Assembly (NCBI RefSeq): GCF_038624605.1
Contig: NZ_CP152020.1
Span: 1,977,312-2,041,311 of the forward strand
Source: Psychrobacillus sp. FSL K6-4046
GTDB taxonomy: Bacteria; Bacillota; Bacilli; Bacillales_A; Planococcaceae
DNA: 64,000 nucleotides
Direction: 5' to 3'
Position 1 is the first letter of the stretch; each line of letters begins with the position of its first letter. The translations under genes and the position numbers were made by a program. This document shows positions 618-45,658 of the stretch, in pieces. The notes under the pieces are model-generated. The model ran no database searches and had not been told where the DNA came from. It saw nothing but the letters and a program-made list of their open reading frames with translations.

Positions 618-1838
618 TTACTTCTTGTTTATAATTGGTGGCTCCGTTTCTTCTGGTGACAATTCTCGAATCAGAACCGGTACTGGGTACGGGATACCAT
701 CTTGTTTCTCTAGTTTAATAGAATATAAAGATTGAAGTGCCTGATGATCTTCCGCACGGAACGTCATTTTTCCTTTTGCAGTTTCAAAAGACATACCTTC
801 CATCAACTTAATGAGCTCATTGGCATCTGTATTACCCTCAGATTTTTTTAGTGCTTCTACGATGGCAATGGCAGCTGACATACCACCAGGAGTGAACAGA
901 TCAGGGACTTCTCCATTAAAACGTTTTTTATGCTCCTCAACTAACCAATCATTAATTTCATTGTCTGGTAATGTGTGATAATAAACCGAAAATCCCTCCA
1001 TACCAATTAGCGGCTCCATAATAGATAGAGCAGGGATATCTGGTGCACCCGTAGAGATTTTTATTCCTTTATCCTGCAATTTTAAGTCAGCAATTTGGTT
1101 CCAAGGTGAGTTAGCCCCAGCCCAAACGACGAAAAGATAATCTGGTTTCGCTTGAATTACCTTTTGTAGATTAGATGTGAAATCTGTTGCAGCAGGGTCA
1201 GCGTATTCCTCTAATACGATTTCTGCCCCCAGCTTTTCAGCTGCTGCTTTAAATGCTGTGACTCCATCCCAGCCGAAGGAATAATCTGGTGCGAAGGTCG
1301 CTATCTTCACTCCTTCTTTAGCAATCGCTGCTGCTCCTGCAACTGCATCCTGAGAAGAATTACGAGCCGTACGGAATATATATGGATTAAATTCAGAACC
1401 CGTGATACTATCAGCTACAGCAGGTTCTACGATCATAATCTTTTCATATTCCTCAGCAAGTGGCAGTACAGCTAACGTATCCCCAGAACTAGAGGAACCA
1501 ACTAAGAAGTCTACTTCATCCTCTTCCAAAAGCTTTGTCGCTTTTTGAACAGCAACCTCAGGTTTAGTCTCTGTATCCTCGTAAACAACCTCAATTTTCT
1601 TGCCAGCTATCTCCATTGTCCCGCCAGTCGCATACTCTAAACCAAGTTCAAAACCGTTTCTAGTTTGCTTCCCGTACGACTCCAGTGATCCAGTCAACGA
1701 AGCAAGTACACCAATTTTAATAGTCTCGCCTTCCTGCACCTCGCCTGAAACAGGAGTAGCTTCACCTGACTCCTCACTACAAGCCGCACTAAAAAATAAA
1801 ACCGATAATAGCATTAGAAATAGAATCCATTTTTTCAA
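618..1838 (-). CDS. ABC importer substrate-binding lipoprotein, LivK-like (Peripla_BP_6)
   Basis: The 406-residue product is an extracellular solute receptor anchored to the membrane by lipid. It has a lipoprotein signal (MKKWILFLML...) with lipobox SAAC and the acylated Cys at position 20, then a receptor domain starting IKIGVLASLTGSLESYG, typical of type I periplasmic-binding folds that bind amino acids, amides or urea. It precedes the LivG-like ATPase gene on the same strand and follows the BTAD-type regulator, which suggests regulator, receptor and importer act together (inference). A perfect 14-base core match to the CcpA cre consensus lies 23 bp before the start codon, so carbon catabolite repression is likely. 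The ligand cannot be assigned from sequence. Confidence 0.92.
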   Translation of the reverse strand: MKKWILFLMLLSVLFFSAACSEESGEATPVSGEVQEGETIKIGVLASLTGSLESYGKQTRNGFELGLEYATGGTMEIAGKKIEVVYEDTETKPEVAVQKATKLLEEDEVDFLVGSSSSGDTLAVLPLAEEYEKIMIVEPAVADSITGSEFNPYIFRTARNSSQDAVAGAAAIAKEGVKIATFAPDYSFGWDGVTAFKAAAEKLGAEIVLEEYADPAATDFTSNLQKVIQAKPDYLFVVWAGANSPWNQIADLKLQDKGIKISTGAPDIPALSIMEPLIGMEGFSVYYHTLPDNEINDWLVEEHKKRFNGEVPDLFTPGGMSAAIAIVEALKKSEGNTDANELIKLMEGMSFETAKGKMTFRAEDHQALQSLYSIKLEKQDGIPYPVPVLIRELSPEETEPPIINKK

Positions 1839-1860
1839 TGTTCTTAACCTCCCAATTATT

Positions 1861-1875
1861 TTGTAAGCGCTCTCA
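1861..1875 (-). promoter_or_regulatory. cre site (CcpA operator) before the binding-protein gene
   Basis: TTGTAAGCGCTCTCA contains TGTAAGCGCTCTCA, which fits the classical 14-base consensus TGWNANCGNTNWCA at every position. It lies between the start codon (1838) and the upstream terminator, where a promoter must be. Seen directly; CcpA binding itself is inferred from the family rule. Confidence 0.75.
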
Positions 1876-1951
1876 TGCTTCGTTTTAACTGTACAAAATC
1901 GGAGTTACAAATAAGTTGCAAAATTCTTGGCTAGGGCAATCATGTAAAATT

Positions 1952-2000
1952 AAAAAAGCTTCGAAAATTTTACTGTACGTAAATTTTCGAAGCCTTTTTT
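1952..2000 (-). terminator. Intrinsic terminator after the BTAD regulator gene
   Basis: Inverted repeat GCTTCGAAAATTT / AAATTTTCGAAGC with an 11-base loop, flanked by A and T runs on both sides, so it can work in either direction. It separates the regulator gene (ending 2170) from the binding-protein gene. The rest of 1876-2169 shows no coding sequence. Confidence 0.8.
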
Positions 2001-2169
2001 ATGTTTTATTCGTTAGCAGATAATTCATGGTCGATAATTTCATTTATTTTTGTCTTGCCTATTGCACCATTGCTAAAGCTATTCGATTCGCGCCAGTAAA
2101 CCTGTCTAAAATGAATGCCATTGTGTTAATAAAATTAGTAAAGCTCAAAAATATTTATATCCTTAAAAT

Positions 2170-14290: not shown

Positions 14291-14419
14291 CTATACATTG
14301 CTCAAGGATAACAGTGCATTTTTAATTTCTTCAAGCTTGCTCTCTACTCTGTGCATTAAATAGAATGACACAAAAATAGGAAAGCCTACATCTTGAATAA
14401 CTGAAAGCCACTGGTCCAT
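14291..14419 (-). CDS. YvrJ family small protein
   Basis: 42 residues, MDQWLSVIQD VGFPIFVSFY followed by LMHRVESKLEEIKNALLSL: one membrane helix with the conserved GFPIxVxxYLxxRxExKL motif of YvrJ proteins, resembling phage BhlA/UviB-type holin-like peptides. The start was moved to the ATG at 14417-14419, 8 bases after AAAGGAGG; the longer frame upstream has no ribosome site. A second YvrJ gene lies at 40826. It follows the DUF1659-DUF2922 pair, but a hairpin terminator intervenes. Function unknown. Confidence 0.8.
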   Translation of the reverse strand: MDQWLSVIQDVGFPIFVSFYLMHRVESKLEEIKNALLSLSNV

Positions 14420-38393: not shown

Positions 38394-38421
38394 CACCCAC
38401 CTGTAATTGCACAGGTGGGTG
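38394..38421 (-). terminator. Terminator after the RRNPP/propeptide genes
   Basis: Perfect 11-base stem CACCCACCTGT/ACAGGTGGGTG with a 6-base loop, followed by TCTATGTTATTT on the minus strand, 44 bases after the propeptide stop. Confidence 0.7.
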
Positions 38422-38464: not shown

Positions 38465-38581
38465 CTAGTTTGTATTTCCAGACGATGTTGGTCGAGGTGC
38501 TTCTTCTTCAGCAAATGTAGAAGTTCCAAAACTAAATAAGACCGTTAAAGTTACTAAGCTTAGAATGAGTAATTTTTTCAT
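38465..38581 (-). CDS. Putative secreted signalling propeptide of an RRNPP quorum-sensing pair
   Basis: 38 residues. Signal peptide MKKLLILSLVTLTVLFSFG with a basic start, long hydrophobic core and cleavage likely after STFA; then EEEAPRPTSSGNTN. The ATG begins one base after the regulator stop (TAAAATG) and uses GGGAGG inside the regulator's last codons, so translation is coupled. Size, Sec signal and position match PapR, NprX and Phr-type propeptides, which are exported, trimmed, re-imported by an oligopeptide permease and bound by the TPR domain of the regulator. The mature peptide is probably a C-terminal 5-8 residue piece (inference). No homologue was recognised by eye. Confidence 0.7.
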   Translation of the reverse strand: MKKLLILSLVTLTVLFSFGTSTFAEEEAPRPTSSGNTN

Positions 38582-38582
38582 T

Positions 38583-39893
38583 TTATAAATCCTCCCATTT
38601 TGTAATAGATTTTTTTCTAAACAATATTTCATTCGCCTTTTGATAATAAAGGTTCGCTGCTTTAAATCTTCTATTCCTATAGTAGTAGTCCGCTAAAAGA
38701 ATAGAGTACTTTTGAACATGTCGATCGTCATGGACTTTTTCAAAATAATTAATACCTTTTTTAACAATAGCTTCAAATTCATCCGAATTGTTATGAAGAG
38801 CCTGGTATATGTGAAGATGGTGTATGTAAGATTTAATATTGCTTCTTTGCTGAATGCTAGCCTCGTCCATTTTACTGAAACCCGCTTCACACCAGCTGAG
38901 GACCCTTTGATGGTCGTTTTGCTTGGAATATTCTTTGACAATGGAAAGTGTGGTTATCATATAACCTTCCACCTGCTGAGGACCTTCCTTATACGATAGA
39001 CTAAGTGTATAGTACTCAATTGCCTTTTCATGATTTTCTTGGATAGCCTGGAGAGATCCTAAATTTTGATAGAGCATTCCTTTATATTGAGTTAGCTTAT
39101 AATCCATAGCCAGCTTTTTTGCTAAGTTATAGTTTTTCTCTGCTTCTTGATAATTTTTCATATTTTTATAGGCCATACCTGTAACTATATAGCTATCAAT
39201 CGCTCGTTCAAAGAGTAGGTTATCCATATAATACTTAAGTGATTTACTAGAATGATTAATGGCATTAAAGTACTCATTACATTTAAAGTAGCTCAAGCTT
39301 ATAACATTATGAAAATCTGCGAGTTCCCATTCTTCAAAGGAGCTATAGTTTACGAGTTTTAGAGCATCTTCAAGCTTTTCTAGTGCAGTACAATATTCTG
39401 CGATTAAATAGTTATATATTCCAAGGTTTAAATTTAGAAGAAACCTTTGTTTGTCATCAAAATCTGCTTCCATTTTTATTAGGACTTGATAAATTGGATA
39501 GATTTGAAGGACTTCCTCATTAATAATCAACATCAATCGAAACATGTATAAATTGTAACTGTAAAAATTTTTTAAATTGGTAAAATTAATCTTCCGCGAT
39601 GTATATTGTTGCAGGGATTCCCTGACCATTTCTTGATCTCTACTTAAAATCGCACTTTTATATAATGCATATAAGTCTTCAATAACTTTGTTTTCTTCTT
39701 CCAGTGGCATTTCTTCTAGCATCAAGTTCAATCGTTTTAACAATGGCTGTGCTACATCTTCGCTAGGTATCGTTGAGTTACTTTCTATCTTGCTTAAATA
39801 GGAAGTAGAACAAATCCCTTTTGCCAAAACCGTTTGTTTAATATTCCGATTTAACCTTTCCTGCTTAATTATGAGACCAATACTACCACCCAT
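38583..39893 (-). CDS. RRNPP-type regulator (XRE helix-turn-helix plus TPR), NprR/PlcR-like
   Basis: 436 residues. The XRE domain is at about 7-62: IGLIIKQERLNRNIKQTVLA with recognition helix CSTSYLSKIESNSTIPSED. The rest is TPR-like helical repeats (for example SSFEEWELADFHNVISLSYF and NYQEAEKNYNLAKKLAMDY), the peptide-binding part. Length is close to NprR (about 420) and longer than PlcR (about 285). ATG with AAGGAGGTGA. It is followed by a propeptide gene and faces the split sigma operon, its most likely target. The receptor could also act without a peptide, as some TPR regulators do. Confidence 0.8.
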   Translation of the reverse strand: MGGSIGLIIKQERLNRNIKQTVLAKGICSTSYLSKIESNSTIPSEDVAQPLLKRLNLMLEEMPLEEENKVIEDLYALYKSAILSRDQEMVRESLQQYTSRKINFTNLKNFYSYNLYMFRLMLIINEEVLQIYPIYQVLIKMEADFDDKQRFLLNLNLGIYNYLIAEYCTALEKLEDALKLVNYSSFEEWELADFHNVISLSYFKCNEYFNAINHSSKSLKYYMDNLLFERAIDSYIVTGMAYKNMKNYQEAEKNYNLAKKLAMDYKLTQYKGMLYQNLGSLQAIQENHEKAIEYYTLSLSYKEGPQQVEGYMITTLSIVKEYSKQNDHQRVLSWCEAGFSKMDEASIQQRSNIKSYIHHLHIYQALHNNSDEFEAIVKKGINYFEKVHDDRHVQKYSILLADYYYRNRRFKAANLYYQKANEILFRKKSITKWEDL

Positions 39894-40105
39894 CGGAAGT
39901 CACCTCCTTGCAATGTAGTATAGGTTATAATTCTCTTTCCATCGCTGAATTCCTTTTTTTATTTTTTCGACTATTTTCTACATCCCTATAAAAAAATACG
40001 AAAAACATAGCGAAAATCAATATTTTGTACAATAATTCACTTAAAAAAAGAAATTCTTATTATAGTGCATTAAATAATAATACTTTTTTCTTTTTATTTC
40101 ACAAC

Positions 40106-40151
40106 AAATATTAGTATATTTCTTATCCAAATATTAGTAATATTTAGGATA
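40106..40151. promoter_or_regulatory. Palindromic operator-like sites between the RRNPP regulator and the sigma operon
   Basis: AAATATTAGTAATATTT (40129-40145) is a perfect 8-1-8 palindrome, extended by TATCC (40124) and GGATA (40147) with one bulged base to about 28 bp. A near copy, AAATATTAGTATATTT, lies at 40106-40121, so the centres are about 23 bp apart. The 424-bp gap 39894-40317 is otherwise AT-rich and without a gene; a weak dyad CAACAAGTCACTCGTTG is at about 40230-40250. Confidence 0.5.
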
Positions 40152-40317
40152 TACAATTATATATTTTACTTTTATTTCAAAAACATTTCAAGGGAGTTGT
40201 AAAAAATAATAAAAAAATCCCTTTATATGAGAACAACAAGTCACTCGTTGCTAAAGTCCCTTTTTCCTTAGCGCCAGCCAAGTATTACATTCTATTTTCA
40301 AGGGGGGAATGTTAAAA

Positions 40318-40833
40318 ATGGTTACTGGTAATAAAAAGATTATAGAAGAGTTTCTCAGCTACCCTGACAATCAAAAGATGCTTGAAGAATATCAATACAC
40401 CAATAGCCAAGAGATTAAAAACAAATTAGATAGAGAGTTTAAAAGATTTTACCAAAATATCCGTATCTTAACCTATGTGCTTAAGGTATTACATTTTGAA
40501 AGTAAACGATTTGATCAAAAGGAGCGTCTTCACAGAAGGAGGAATATTTTATCACTTGACGGTGATGAAAAAATATCAGTCATTTATCATGAAAGATTTT
40601 TTACAGACTTTATTGGATTCTCAGATGACATATCAGACCACATCTCGTCTGATAAATTATTTTTTAGTATAAGAAAGCTTTCAGAACGACAGAAGAAAAT
40701 ATTATCACTCGTCTTTGTAAAACAAATGACCGACCGGGAAATTGCACATTATTTTGGCATTTCACAACAAGCGGTTTCAAAATCAAGACGAAATATAATC
40801 GAAAACATTCGAAAGGAGCTTACGTATGATTGA
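40318..40833 (+). CDS. Sigma-70 region 4-type factor, SigO-like
   Basis: 171 residues. The C-terminus is a clear sigma region 4: LSERQKKILSLVFVKQMTDR, EIAHYFGISQQAVSKSRRNI, ending RKELTYD. The N-terminal half has no recognisable region 2, unlike normal sigma factors, which resembles B. subtilis SigO (YvrI), a split sigma that needs the small partner RsoA. Start chosen at ATG 40318, 10 bases after GGGGGG; ATG 40309 is only one base from that site. The gene overlaps the YvrJ gene by 8 bases and starts a three-gene operon. Confidence 0.8.
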   Translation: MVTGNKKIIEEFLSYPDNQKMLEEYQYTNSQEIKNKLDREFKRFYQNIRILTYVLKVLHFESKRFDQKERLHRRRNILSLDGDEKISVIYHERFFTDFIGFSDDISDHISSDKLFFSIRKLSERQKKILSLVFVKQMTDREIAHYFGISQQAVSKSRRNIIENIRKELTYD

Positions 40834-40999
40834 AGCTAGCAATATTGTTCAGTTACTTGGCAACTTCGGCTTTCCAATTGTAGTCTCCATTTATTTACTT
40901 CACCGTTTTGAAAATAAGCTGGAGGCACTAGAAAATTCATTACACAATCTATCCAATACTGTCGTTCATAACCTAGAAAAGAAAAAAGGGGGGAAATAA
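40826..40999 (+). CDS. YvrJ family small protein (second copy)
   Basis: 57 residues, too short for routine gene calls. The sequence MIEASNIVQLLGNFGFPIVV followed by SIYLLHRFENKLEALE carries the YvrJ motif GFPIVVSIYLLHRxExKL; a single membrane helix is followed by a charged tail. ATG 40826 overlaps the end of the sigma gene, with GAAAGGAGC upstream. In B. subtilis yvrJ lies in the sigO-rsoA-oxdC region, so this linkage is conserved. Function unknown; holin-like or anchoring roles are guesses. Confidence 0.8.
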   Translation: MIEASNIVQLLGNFGFPIVVSIYLLHRFENKLEALENSLHNLSNTVVHNLEKKKGGK

Positions 41000-41000
41000 A

Positions 41001-41186
41001 ATGGACGAAGCTGAAATTTTGAAGCTTCTTAAACAGCTAGAGCCTAAAATGGAAAGTGTTCTATATCAAACAAGCTTTGAATACAGAGAAGACCTAGAGC
41101 AGGACTTAATAGAAAAGATAATAAAAATTATCAATAACAAGGTTACGCAAGAGGTGCCGGGATTCTTTGAGATGAATAGGAGATGA
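41001..41186 (+). CDS. RsoA-like sigma region 2 partner protein
   Basis: 61 residues: MDEAEILKLLKQLEPKMESV followed by LYQTSFEYREDLEQDLIEKI, which resembles sigma region 2 (REDLEQE... motif) as in B. subtilis RsoA, the co-sigma of SigO. The C-terminus ends VPGFFEMNRR. It starts two bases after the YvrJ stop with GGGGGG. Together with the region-4 protein it would complete a split sigma factor. The assignment rests on length, motif and operon, not on a full alignment. Confidence 0.65.
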   Translation: MDEAEILKLLKQLEPKMESVLYQTSFEYREDLEQDLIEKIIKIINNKVTQEVPGFFEMNRR

Positions 41187-43967: not shown

Positions 43968-45125
43968 ATGGACCAATTTATTAAAACAGAAGAACAATTT
44001 GAGCTAATTGCTAAGATAAACGATTTAAAACCAGTTTTTAGACATAGAGAGCCGGAGCTCGATCAACTCGGCTCCTTCCCTTTTGCCGATTTCCAAGATT
44101 TAAAGAATATAGATTATCCTACTTTAACTTTACCAAAGGAGTACGGAGGGCAAGGCTTAGGATTGTATGAATACATACTAGCACAGGAAGCTATTTCTGA
44201 GGGAAGTGGTGCTACAGGACTATCCATTGGATGGCATAATGGGATTGTTTTGGAATATGCAGAAAACAACCATTGGGAGCAGGATGCTGCTGACTGGCTT
44301 CTAAAGGAAATAGCAAATGGTGCGATCATTAATAGTGCAGCCACTGAAAATAATGCCGGCAGCCCTACACGAGGTGCTCTTCCCCGTACAACGGTTATAC
44401 GGGATGGCAAGGATTTAGTGATTAATGGGGAGAAAACTTTTACATCTGCTTCCCCTGTACTCGATTATATTATAGTTACATGCACAAACGAAATCGGCAT
44501 TATTGAAATGATAGTAGTACCTAAGGATAGTCCTGGTGTTTCTATTCTTGAAACATGGGATATGCTTTCCATGAGAGGAACTGCAAGTCATACCCTCATT
44601 TTAGAAAATGTTAGAGTTTCCGGAAATCATATCCTGAAAGCCTTACCTGCTACCAAGACAGAAGCAAAGGGATGGATGCTTCATATTCCAGCCTGCTACT
44701 TAGGGATCGCTGCTGCAGCAAGGAAATACGCAGTTGACTTTGCAGCTTCTTATATCCCCACCTCTTTAGGAAAGCCAATCGCGGAGACTCCAAATATTAA
44801 GCATATCATAGGCGAAATGGAACTAGAGTTATCCATTGCAAGACATATGCTCTATGGTACGGTGGAACGATATGAGCAAGCAGAAGATAAGACGACCCTT
44901 CAAGAGTCACTGGATATTACTAAAATAGCCGTTACGAATGGAGCTATTAAAATAGTCGATTTGGCTATGAAAATAGTTGGCTCTAGAGCCCTATCTCAAT
45001 CTAATCCGATGCATCGCTACTACCTAAATGTAAGAGCAGGATTATACAACCCTCCGATGGAAGATATGATAAAGTCAAAATTAGCAAGTGCTGCTATTGA
45101 TGCAGCTAAAAAAGACGAAAATTAA
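43968..45125 (+). CDS. Acyl-CoA dehydrogenase-like flavoprotein (YdbM-like)
   Basis: 385 residues. The three-part ACAD fold is seen: N-terminal LPKEYGGQGLGLYEYILAQE, middle ATENNAGSPTRGALPRTTV with VINGEKTFTSASPVLDYIIV, and helical C-terminal part. The usual catalytic Glu near the C-terminus (in the RxxEGT/MHRYYLN region) is not evident: the stretch is NPMHRYYLNVRAGLYNPP. That suggests a monooxygenase- or DszC/YdbM-type enzyme rather than a typical beta-oxidation dehydrogenase. GAGAGAGG ribosome site. A terminator begins at its stop codon. Confidence 0.85.
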   Translation: MDQFIKTEEQFELIAKINDLKPVFRHREPELDQLGSFPFADFQDLKNIDYPTLTLPKEYGGQGLGLYEYILAQEAISEGSGATGLSIGWHNGIVLEYAENNHWEQDAADWLLKEIANGAIINSAATENNAGSPTRGALPRTTVIRDGKDLVINGEKTFTSASPVLDYIIVTCTNEIGIIEMIVVPKDSPGVSILETWDMLSMRGTASHTLILENVRVSGNHILKALPATKTEAKGWMLHIPACYLGIAAAARKYAVDFAASYIPTSLGKPIAETPNIKHIIGEMELELSIARHMLYGTVERYEQAEDKTTLQESLDITKIAVTNGAIKIVDLAMKIVGSRALSQSNPMHRYYLNVRAGLYNPPMEDMIKSKLASAAIDAAKKDEN

Positions 45126-45168
45126 AACGAAGCGAATGGAAAGCAGTCCATTCGCTTCGTTTTAATTT
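45125..45168 (+). terminator. Terminator after the acyl-CoA dehydrogenase-like gene
   Basis: AAAACGAAGCGAATGGA and TCCATTCGCTTCGTTTT pair perfectly over 17 bases with loop AAGCAG, then TTTT. Confidence 0.9.
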
Positions 45169-45460
45169 TGTTTAAGAATTTATAAACTTCGAAACCTGTG
45201 GATAAATTGATGGCTAGCTCCATCGCCTTGCCCCTCGGGGTCAAATGGTTAAAAGCTCCGGTTGCTGAAGAGCTGCCTCCTCGCTTTTCTCCATTTGCCT
45301 GTCGGGGCAGAGACAGGCGATTGTGCTTTTCTTGATTGGCTAGCTCCAGCGCCTTGCCCCTCGGGGTCAAATGGTTAAAAGCTCCGGTGGCTGAGGAACT
45401 TCCTCCTCGCTTTTCTCCATTTGCCTGTCGGGGCAGACATAGGCGATTGCGCTTTTCTTG
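45168..45460 (-). repeat. Repeat family B, two units plus tail (B4, minus strand)
   Basis: Two inverted copies, each with GGGGTCAAATGG, GCTCCGG and the GCCTGTCGGGGCAGA hairpin, ending in CTTTTCTTG; the family tail (TTAAGAATTTATAAACTTCG) lies on the left. It directly touches the stop codon of the next gene at 45461 and may have set its C-terminus. Confidence 0.88.
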
Positions 45461-45658
45461 TTACGTCCCAAGGGTTAAAAGGAGGTAAGAGGCTGCGTAT
45501 AAAAAAGTTACAAGGTATGTAATGATATACATCATTACTTCAAACCTGTTAAGTTTTCTGTCCCTCTTCGTCTTTTTAAGCAGACGAATATATGCATATC
45601 CACATAGCCACAGCAATAGGATCGTTACCTCGTTTACACTTTCTATTAAGTTAACCAA
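45461..45658 (-). CDS. Hypothetical small membrane protein
   Basis: 65 residues with two membrane helices (SVNEVTILLLWLCGYAYIRL and MMYIITYLVTFLYAASYLLL) joined by a basic loop KKTKRDRKLNR. TTG start with AAGGAGAAAATCTG. Its stop abuts repeat B4. No family recognised. The gap 45659-45815 contains a short piece that resembles the flank of repeat A3 (GTAGAATTG). Confidence 0.65.
   Translation of the reverse strand: MVNLIESVNEVTILLLWLCGYAYIRLLKKTKRDRKLNRFEVMMYIITYLVTFLYAASYLLLTLGT

Follow-up and report, generated by a model that had tools for sequence, protein, structure and literature searches.

The window, the whole stretch of 64,000 nucleotides analyzed from Psychrobacillus sp. FSL K6-4046, carries on its minus strand a gene for a 436-residue regulator that is followed, after a single base, by a mini-ORF of 38 codons. 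RRNPP systems are known in many Bacillota, and in two of them, PlcR-PapR and NprR-NprX, the propeptide gene likewise lies downstream of that for the regulator or receptor. The features of the locus are the following.

38394 to 38421, minus strand: intrinsic terminator 3' of the pair, a hairpin of 12 pairs with a folding z-score of -5.7 (hairpin search and folding)
38465 to 38581, minus strand: putative propeptide gene, 38 codons, with a hydrophobic leader (residues 1 to 24) ending in STFA, the cleavage site being placed by eye, and a 14-residue tail, EEEAPRPTSSGNTN (ORF list, mini-ORF scan, alignment)
38483 to 38509, minus strand: codons 25 to 33, the conserved block EEEAPRPTS, most likely with the mature pheromone inside (inferred from an alignment of 17 Psychrobacillus propeptides)
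38583 to 38597, minus strand: regulator codons W-E-D-L-stop (TGGGAGGATTTATAA), holding the GGAGG Shine-Dalgarno site of the propeptide gene (sequence, alignment, comparison of receptor gene ends)
38583 to 39893, minus strand: receptor/regulator gene, 436 residues in the ORF listing of the window, with an HTH_3 domain (residues 9 to 57) and a TPR superhelix (about residues 64 to 431) (Pfam domains, profile searches, AlphaFold model)
40050 to 40104, minus strand: candidate operator TTGTGAAAT...ATTTC, 55 bp overall and degenerate in this species (upstream alignment, pattern tests)
40126 to 40151, minus strand: conserved upstream element TATCCTAAATATTACTAA (written as the minus strand) inside an imperfect palindrome, with TACTA invariant in 17/17 aligned species (upstream alignment)
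40309 to 40833, plus strand: SigO-like sigma factor gene with sigma-70 region 4 (Sigma70_r4, E 5e-9), found at the locus in 11/18 genomes
40826 to 40999, plus strand: yvrJ, for a small membrane protein, divergent from the regulator gene and adjoining it in 18/18 genomes (PHROG 4898, holin)
41001 to 41186, plus strand: gene for an RsoA-like protein, possibly the second half of a split sigma factor (NCBIfam sigO_reg_RsoA, E 1.3e-9, 37.9 bits against a cut-off of 100)

The mini-ORF, MKKLLILSLVTLTVLFSFGTSTFAEEEAPRPTSSGNTN, is preceded by GGGAGGATTTATAAA, with the ribosome site GGGAGGA. The ORF coordinates agree with the sequence-only reading, which had described a regulator gene followed one base on by a 38-codon ORF with its own ribosome site, and the terminator that it had placed after the pair was recovered as well. 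Among the 51 ORFs of at least 120 residues in the window, not all of which are genes, only the regulator has a ribosome site and a leader mini-ORF at its stop codon. Elsewhere in the window, at 45122 to 45490, the six-frame ORF list shows a coding-like segment that recurs after some 140 bases, perhaps an intergenic repeat.

How might the small gene be translated? The last codons of the regulator, TGG GAG GAT TTA (WEDL), are also the Shine-Dalgarno site of the propeptide gene. Gene ends were compared in 58 rows, reduced to 56 genes with this type of end by removing L021 and L022, 5'-truncated upstream copies that repeat L036 and L037. GGAGG is present in the final codons of 36/38 receptor genes that have a mini-ORF versus 1/18 that do not, a link whose Fisher P value of 4e-12 overstates the evidence because the genes are related. 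Where genes of the GGAGG type have GAG, the peptide-less ones, that one gene aside, have GAA or CAA; across the compared receptor rows, roughly one Glu codon in four is GAG. The exceptions are few: the mini-ORF of L023, which lacks GGAGG, is by inspection a chance ORF, L027 has a near site, and the sole peptide-less gene with GGAGG, L041, has a propeptide gene that a premature stop interrupts. The peptide-less receptors fall into two clades, one of Kurthia, Viridibacillus, and Rummeliibacillus and one made up of the first tandem copy of Paenisporosarcina. Most peptide-bearing receptors of this branch can be told from orphans simply by the overlap of the WEDL codons with the Shine-Dalgarno sequence.

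Named relatives, Psychrobacillus sp. BL-248-WT-3 at 99% and P. faecigallinarum at 81%, agree with the assignment of the window to Psychrobacillus. The regulator occurs in 18 of the 19 Psychrobacillus genomes, G002 being the one without it, and a mini-ORF lies at its stop codon in all 18 (17/17 aligned loci plus L054). Fifteen regulator loci were added later, 5 of which were already in the set and 10 of which were new (L165 to L168, L171 to L175, and L179). At each of these ten previously unused loci, a mini-ORF with a leader lies at -1 or +1 relative to the stop and GGAGG is present, the tails including DPPRPIV, AQIPRITS, and DQLPKLF; two tandem first receptor copies within these ten loci have no mini-ORF. 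Codon comparisons point to selection on the encoded peptide, as dN is below dS in 37/37 within-group propeptide pairs (the weakest at 0.078 versus 0.081); for the propeptide of this species and that of P. faecigallinarum, dN is 0.06 and dS is 2.09.

Which part of the propeptide is kept? The hydrophobic leader with basic residues near its start is conserved in 17/17 aligned Psychrobacillus propeptides. It was judged a Sec leader by eye and by composition; by eye, too, its A-x-A-like end is clear in this species and not in every species, and no obvious signal-peptidase site was seen ahead of the block in seven of them (L014 to L020). The same 17 propeptides share the block E[END]E.PR[PVI]T, with exact PRPT in 15/17 and PRVT and PRIT in the remainder, and the residues 3' of it vary in both sequence and length. 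The sequence-only reading's choice of the last few residues as the pheromone was set aside after the alignment. With the extreme C terminus variable and the internal E.E.PRPT kept, the pheromone more likely contains the block than equals the final residues, and the mature peptide probably includes PRPT. Searches of the propeptide against family models gave weak matches only, located in or starting from the leader; the Pfam model Bacillus_PapR reached 14.5 bits (cut-off 27) over residues 1 to 15 only.

The regulator also has relatives with peptides of their own. A second receptor in the same genome, 30% identical to the regulator, has a propeptide with the tail DAKPEITSI and the block KPEITS, and in its group of 11 loci, this one included, the propeptide is intact at 10. 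The paralogue propeptide at L040 (about 1717 to 2022, minus strand) carries five tandem copies of QDKP[DE]ITS, a putative multi-copy pheromone precursor, and a third homologue in the genome studied here, L004 (around G000:C1:3054275-3055486), has a propeptide with three copies of IPIHPPIG. Several pheromone copies per propeptide are a trait reported for known systems (PMC9765709; PMC11343458). Among Metabacillus and Peribacillus receptors, the propeptides of L083, L086, and L087 repeat SEPDHPKIV three times. The broken paralogue gene mentioned above lies near position 3277 of L041 (genome G007), where its Shine-Dalgarno site is still present. Paenisporosarcina-type loci (L066, L067, L068, L070, L075, L167, and L168) have two tandem receptors with a propeptide gene after the second only, and receptors of Viridibacillus, Rummeliibacillus, and Kurthia (L071, L072, L074, L077 to L080, L082, L089, L091, and L097) have none at the stop. 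As such peptide-less relatives exist, this type of receptor can persist without an adjacent peptide gene.

What kind of receptor is it? Two hallmarks of RRNPP(A) systems are found here: a receptor whose HTH_3 and TPR domains exceed the Pfam cut-offs and whose fold is nearest to NprR and Rap, and an adjacent ORF, with its leader recognized by composition, at each of the Psychrobacillus and new loci counted above. For the AlphaFold model (pLDDT 92.2, pTM 0.85), apo NprR (Z 32.6; 348 residues at 2.8 A) and RapI (Z 32.1) share the top of the VIA matches listed, and Foldseek places RapI first. PDB searches rank NprR first with a 40-sequence profile (4gpk, E 4.9e-35), after which come a designed TPR protein (8e-35) and Rap proteins; with an 11-sequence profile, designed TPR proteins and Rap3T come ahead of NprR, and with the single sequence Rap3T is best and NprR is absent from the matches up to E 1. 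NprR was therefore set aside as the clear nearest relative, the top match shifting with the query among Rap3T, designed TPR proteins, NprR, and RapI. Also among the matches listed are AimR structures (VIA Z 18 to 19) and PlcR (Z 18.6 over 211 residues); Rgg and PrgX are absent from the 50 VIA matches listed, which is no evidence against either. Neither 50,697 phage records nor IMG/VR, the latter searched by patterns, yielded a relative, and the plasmid relatives come to 10 records, all below 30% identity.

Comparison with characterized systems gives a mixed picture. Rap-Phr shares the TPR superhelix and, by prediction, an exported propeptide, a likeness that the tandem-copy propeptides predicted in relatives of the regulator extend; unlike the regulator, Rap has no DNA-binding HTH, and Spo0F contacts of the Rap kind, judged from the equivalent positions of NprR, are not conserved. 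AimR-AimP (arbitrium) resembles the pair in its HTH-TPR receptor, its downstream propeptide, and its long-spacer inverted boxes, which are found here only in some relatives of the regulator. In contrast to AimR-AimP, the pair is chromosomal, and the boxes of AimR are 6-mers with a 25-bp spacer, called unusual by the authors who reported them (PMC6458997), versus candidate 7-mers 44 to 48 bp apart here. PlcR-PapR has the same plan of an HTH-TPR regulator and a downstream propeptide, but PlcR aligns over a shorter stretch and the PapR model matches the leader alone. The sequence-only reading, which had named PlcR-PapR, NprR-NprX, and AimR-AimP as having this layout, is partly supported: by the tests made, the pair does not belong to the NprR subfamily, and PapR gives just a weak match.

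An RRNPP-type receptor/propeptide pair is strongly supported, because the mini-ORF accompanies every Psychrobacillus regulator, dN is below dS in every propeptide pair, block repeats occur in tandem in relatives, and the fold is that of NprR and Rap. There is good reason to regard it as an RRNPP-type peptide quorum-sensing pair, and the mini-ORF product is very probably an exported pheromone for the adjoining receptor. The two genes would be cotranscribed, and the propeptide would be translated from the Shine-Dalgarno site within the last codons of the regulator, exported by Sec, and trimmed to a short peptide around EEAPRPTS. Once reimported, presumably by an oligopeptide permease, the peptide would bind in the TPR groove of the regulator and alter the binding of the HTH to DNA. 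The regulator would most likely control its own promoter and the divergent operon, which has the holin-like yvrJ as its constant member and in this species also encodes the SigO/RsoA-like split sigma factor.

Could the pair instead be NprR-NprX proper, known from the Bacillus cereus group, with a receptor that is both a Spo0F-binding sporulation inhibitor and a transcription factor? NprR has the HTH and TPR fold, is with Rap the closest structure, and leads both the VIA matches listed and the 40-sequence profile search; moreover, the proline-centered block KPEITS of the paralogue (DAKPEITS) resembles the NprX peptide SSKPDIVG given in PMC4970707. This identification is nonetheless very improbable. 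The single-sequence search does not list NprR, and the regulator block (PRPT) and neighborhood are different. Identity is 58/342 aligned residues (17%), the NprR chain compared lacking its HTH, and the four positions described as Spo0F contacts of NprR (PMC4970707), D107, Y118, E188, and Y223, are N106, M117, L191, and L226 in the regulator, all changed. A published rule assigns a receptor to a known cluster at >=30% identity over 80% of a reference receptor (PMC10075063); applied here to the single NprR chain, the value is 17% over the 342 aligned residues. The NprR peptide contacts R126, H201, N306, and D309 are not kept either, which means that the peptide cannot be bound in just the same way; the position of W167 in the NprR peptide site is aromatic in 36/40 rows, and the tetramer residue F225 corresponds to F228. 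An exchange of charge between R126 of NprR and the residue following the peptide proline was considered and dropped, since alignments disagree on the partner (E126 or N125) and give no consistent pairing. Resembling NprR in fold and layout, the regulator is not NprR; it is an RRNPP branch of its own near NprR and Rap, as judged against a single NprR chain. Two further readings concern the peptide rather than the receptor. It could be a secreted effector, antimicrobial or wall active, whose production the regulator controls without binding it, and the pairing of a sigma factor and a small, holin-like protein does recall the UviA/UviB bacteriocin module (PMC9527704). But the tail is just 14 residues long, its proline-centered block is common to NprX-like paralogues and occurs in tandem copies in one, and the TPR fold of the regulator is that of peptide receptors, which makes an effector very improbable. 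Action within the producer or at the membrane, with no export and reimport, has a parallel in the leaderless peptides described for another RRNPP receptor (PMC10518010) and fits the species in which no obvious cleavage site was seen, yet the leader with its basic start is kept in every aligned propeptide, and this route seems highly improbable.

An RRNPP pair being the preferred reading, what does it control? Other neighbors, such as CNNM, ileS, and glyoxalase genes, are found at few loci, unlike yvrJ, which is beside the receptor in 18/18 Psychrobacillus genomes (17 loci plus the window itself). It remains in the seven genomes whose locus lacks the SigO-like and RsoA-like genes, three of which have a more distant sigma relative elsewhere. 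YvrJ gives two to three matches per regulator-bearing genome and none in G002, so that the one genome without the regulator is also without YvrJ; a further YvrJ-family match is present in the window at 14294 to 14398, minus strand. The linkage might be an inherited neighborhood only, with the regulator controlling itself and unlinked genes. For this speak the operator-like repeats, the clearest of which precede the regulator's own gene (8/8 genomes), and the finding that outside Psychrobacillus, in the stretches covered around the receptor, YvrJ adjoins 0/15 later-added family loci and none of L061 and L066 to L100. Against it stand the constancy of yvrJ amid changing neighbors, even without the sigma and RsoA genes, and the double absence in G002. 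Mere inheritance is a serious contender that falls somewhat short of an even chance; regulation of the divergent yvrJ operon by the receptor is slightly favored.

YvrJ itself matches PHROG 4898 ("holin") in 14/14 proteins scanned of the 18 (best E 7e-9), while Pfam returns the YvrJ family only, and no function for it was found in the literature consulted. SigO-RsoA is reported to drive yvrJ in B. subtilis (PMC8103513), where split sigma factor and YvrJ genes likewise occur together, and in the Clostridium module UviA-UviB a small holin accompanies a sigma factor; different from the present locus, no peptide receptor beside either is mentioned in the sources consulted. A quorum-sensing link, if true, would be a first handle on YvrJ. 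As far as literature listings show, the pair itself is not described in work on RRNPP in Lysinibacillus or with holins, on Psychrobacillus quorum sensing, or on YvrJ and sigma factors, and term searches found neither Psychrobacillus nor Planococcaceae named in the main texts of three RRNPP surveys (PMC10075063, PMC9765709, and PMC12700828). The first of these reports 21 new candidate RRNPP subfamilies, among which that of the pair may be. With this pair come a pheromone that can be put to the test, a conserved candidate for the output in YvrJ (accompanied or not by SigO/RsoA-like proteins), and, in part of the relatives, an unusually spaced operator-like repeat.

Upstream of the regulator, the sequence-only reading had seen strong palindromes. 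These are weaker than that: a scan gave one arm pair of 79% and one pair 80 nt apart, and TCCAAATATTAGTAATATTTAGGA at 40126 to 40149 is an imperfect palindrome with arm lengths one base apart. There is a conserved block within 420 bp upstream of the 17 orthologues, and TTGGGAAA...TTTC occurs in 15/17 aligned Psychrobacillus species; it also stands upstream of the first receptor copies of L167 to L170. A pattern-free scan of 350 bp upstream showed no excess over shuffles at most loci, the one studied here included. Spaced inverted patterns are clearer in relatives: TGGGAA...TTCCCA, with a spacing of 44 or so bases, in 9/12 more distant receptors and GAAAG...CTTTC in 11/11 upstream regions of the paralogue group. 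The pattern of the regulator's own group is half conserved (16/17), being weakest in this species and missing in L005. Shuffle means were 0.00, 0.06, and 0.01, respectively, for patterns that were defined post hoc and compared with mononucleotide shuffles, and no related operator pattern was found in 20 further upstream regions. Exact TTGGGAA-N44..48-TTCCCAA is present in 8/8 genomes searched, all of which are the source of the pattern, each with one site starting 110 to 125 bp before the receptor gene; two sites lie elsewhere, the reversed pattern has one, and the strict repeat occurs in only 2/10 new loci. The spaced repeat is a reasonably likely operator of the receptor in the Paenisporosarcina and Metabacillus types, and in this species it is a doubtful one.

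Can a regulon be read from these patterns? Across 19 genomes, a stricter form of the focal pattern gave 21 sites, 11 of which precede the regulator gene (reversed pattern, 4); of the 10 away from it, six are one homologous sequence in six genomes. Within the genome studied here, no scan showed an excess, whether for the focal operator (14 sites versus 12 for the reversed control), the paralogue pattern (4 versus 4), or TTTCCTAAATATTACTAA with up to 3 mismatches (16 versus 31), and no regulon was readable. NprR-NprX forms a tetramer for which binding to two sites has been proposed (PMC4970707), and that the receptor might likewise meet DNA as a tetramer occupying both boxes is no more than a natural guess. 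A further reading, which we consider rather unlikely, is a distinct RRNPP branch in which the pheromone would directly gate a split sigma factor and the holin-like YvrJ, with the receptor acting as a tetramer at two boxes separated by about five helical turns; were the gating to hold, cell density would control membrane permeabilization or non-Sec release. In the paralogue group, a second GAAAG...CTTTC copy is present at 7/11 loci. In this genome, a second GAAAGT...ACTTTC (L048, 4242 to 4293; G000:C1:3489541-3489592) lies 69 nt before a DUF4288-like gene beside the paralogue (26.9 bits in Pfam, marginally below the cut-off, 27), making that gene a candidate target.
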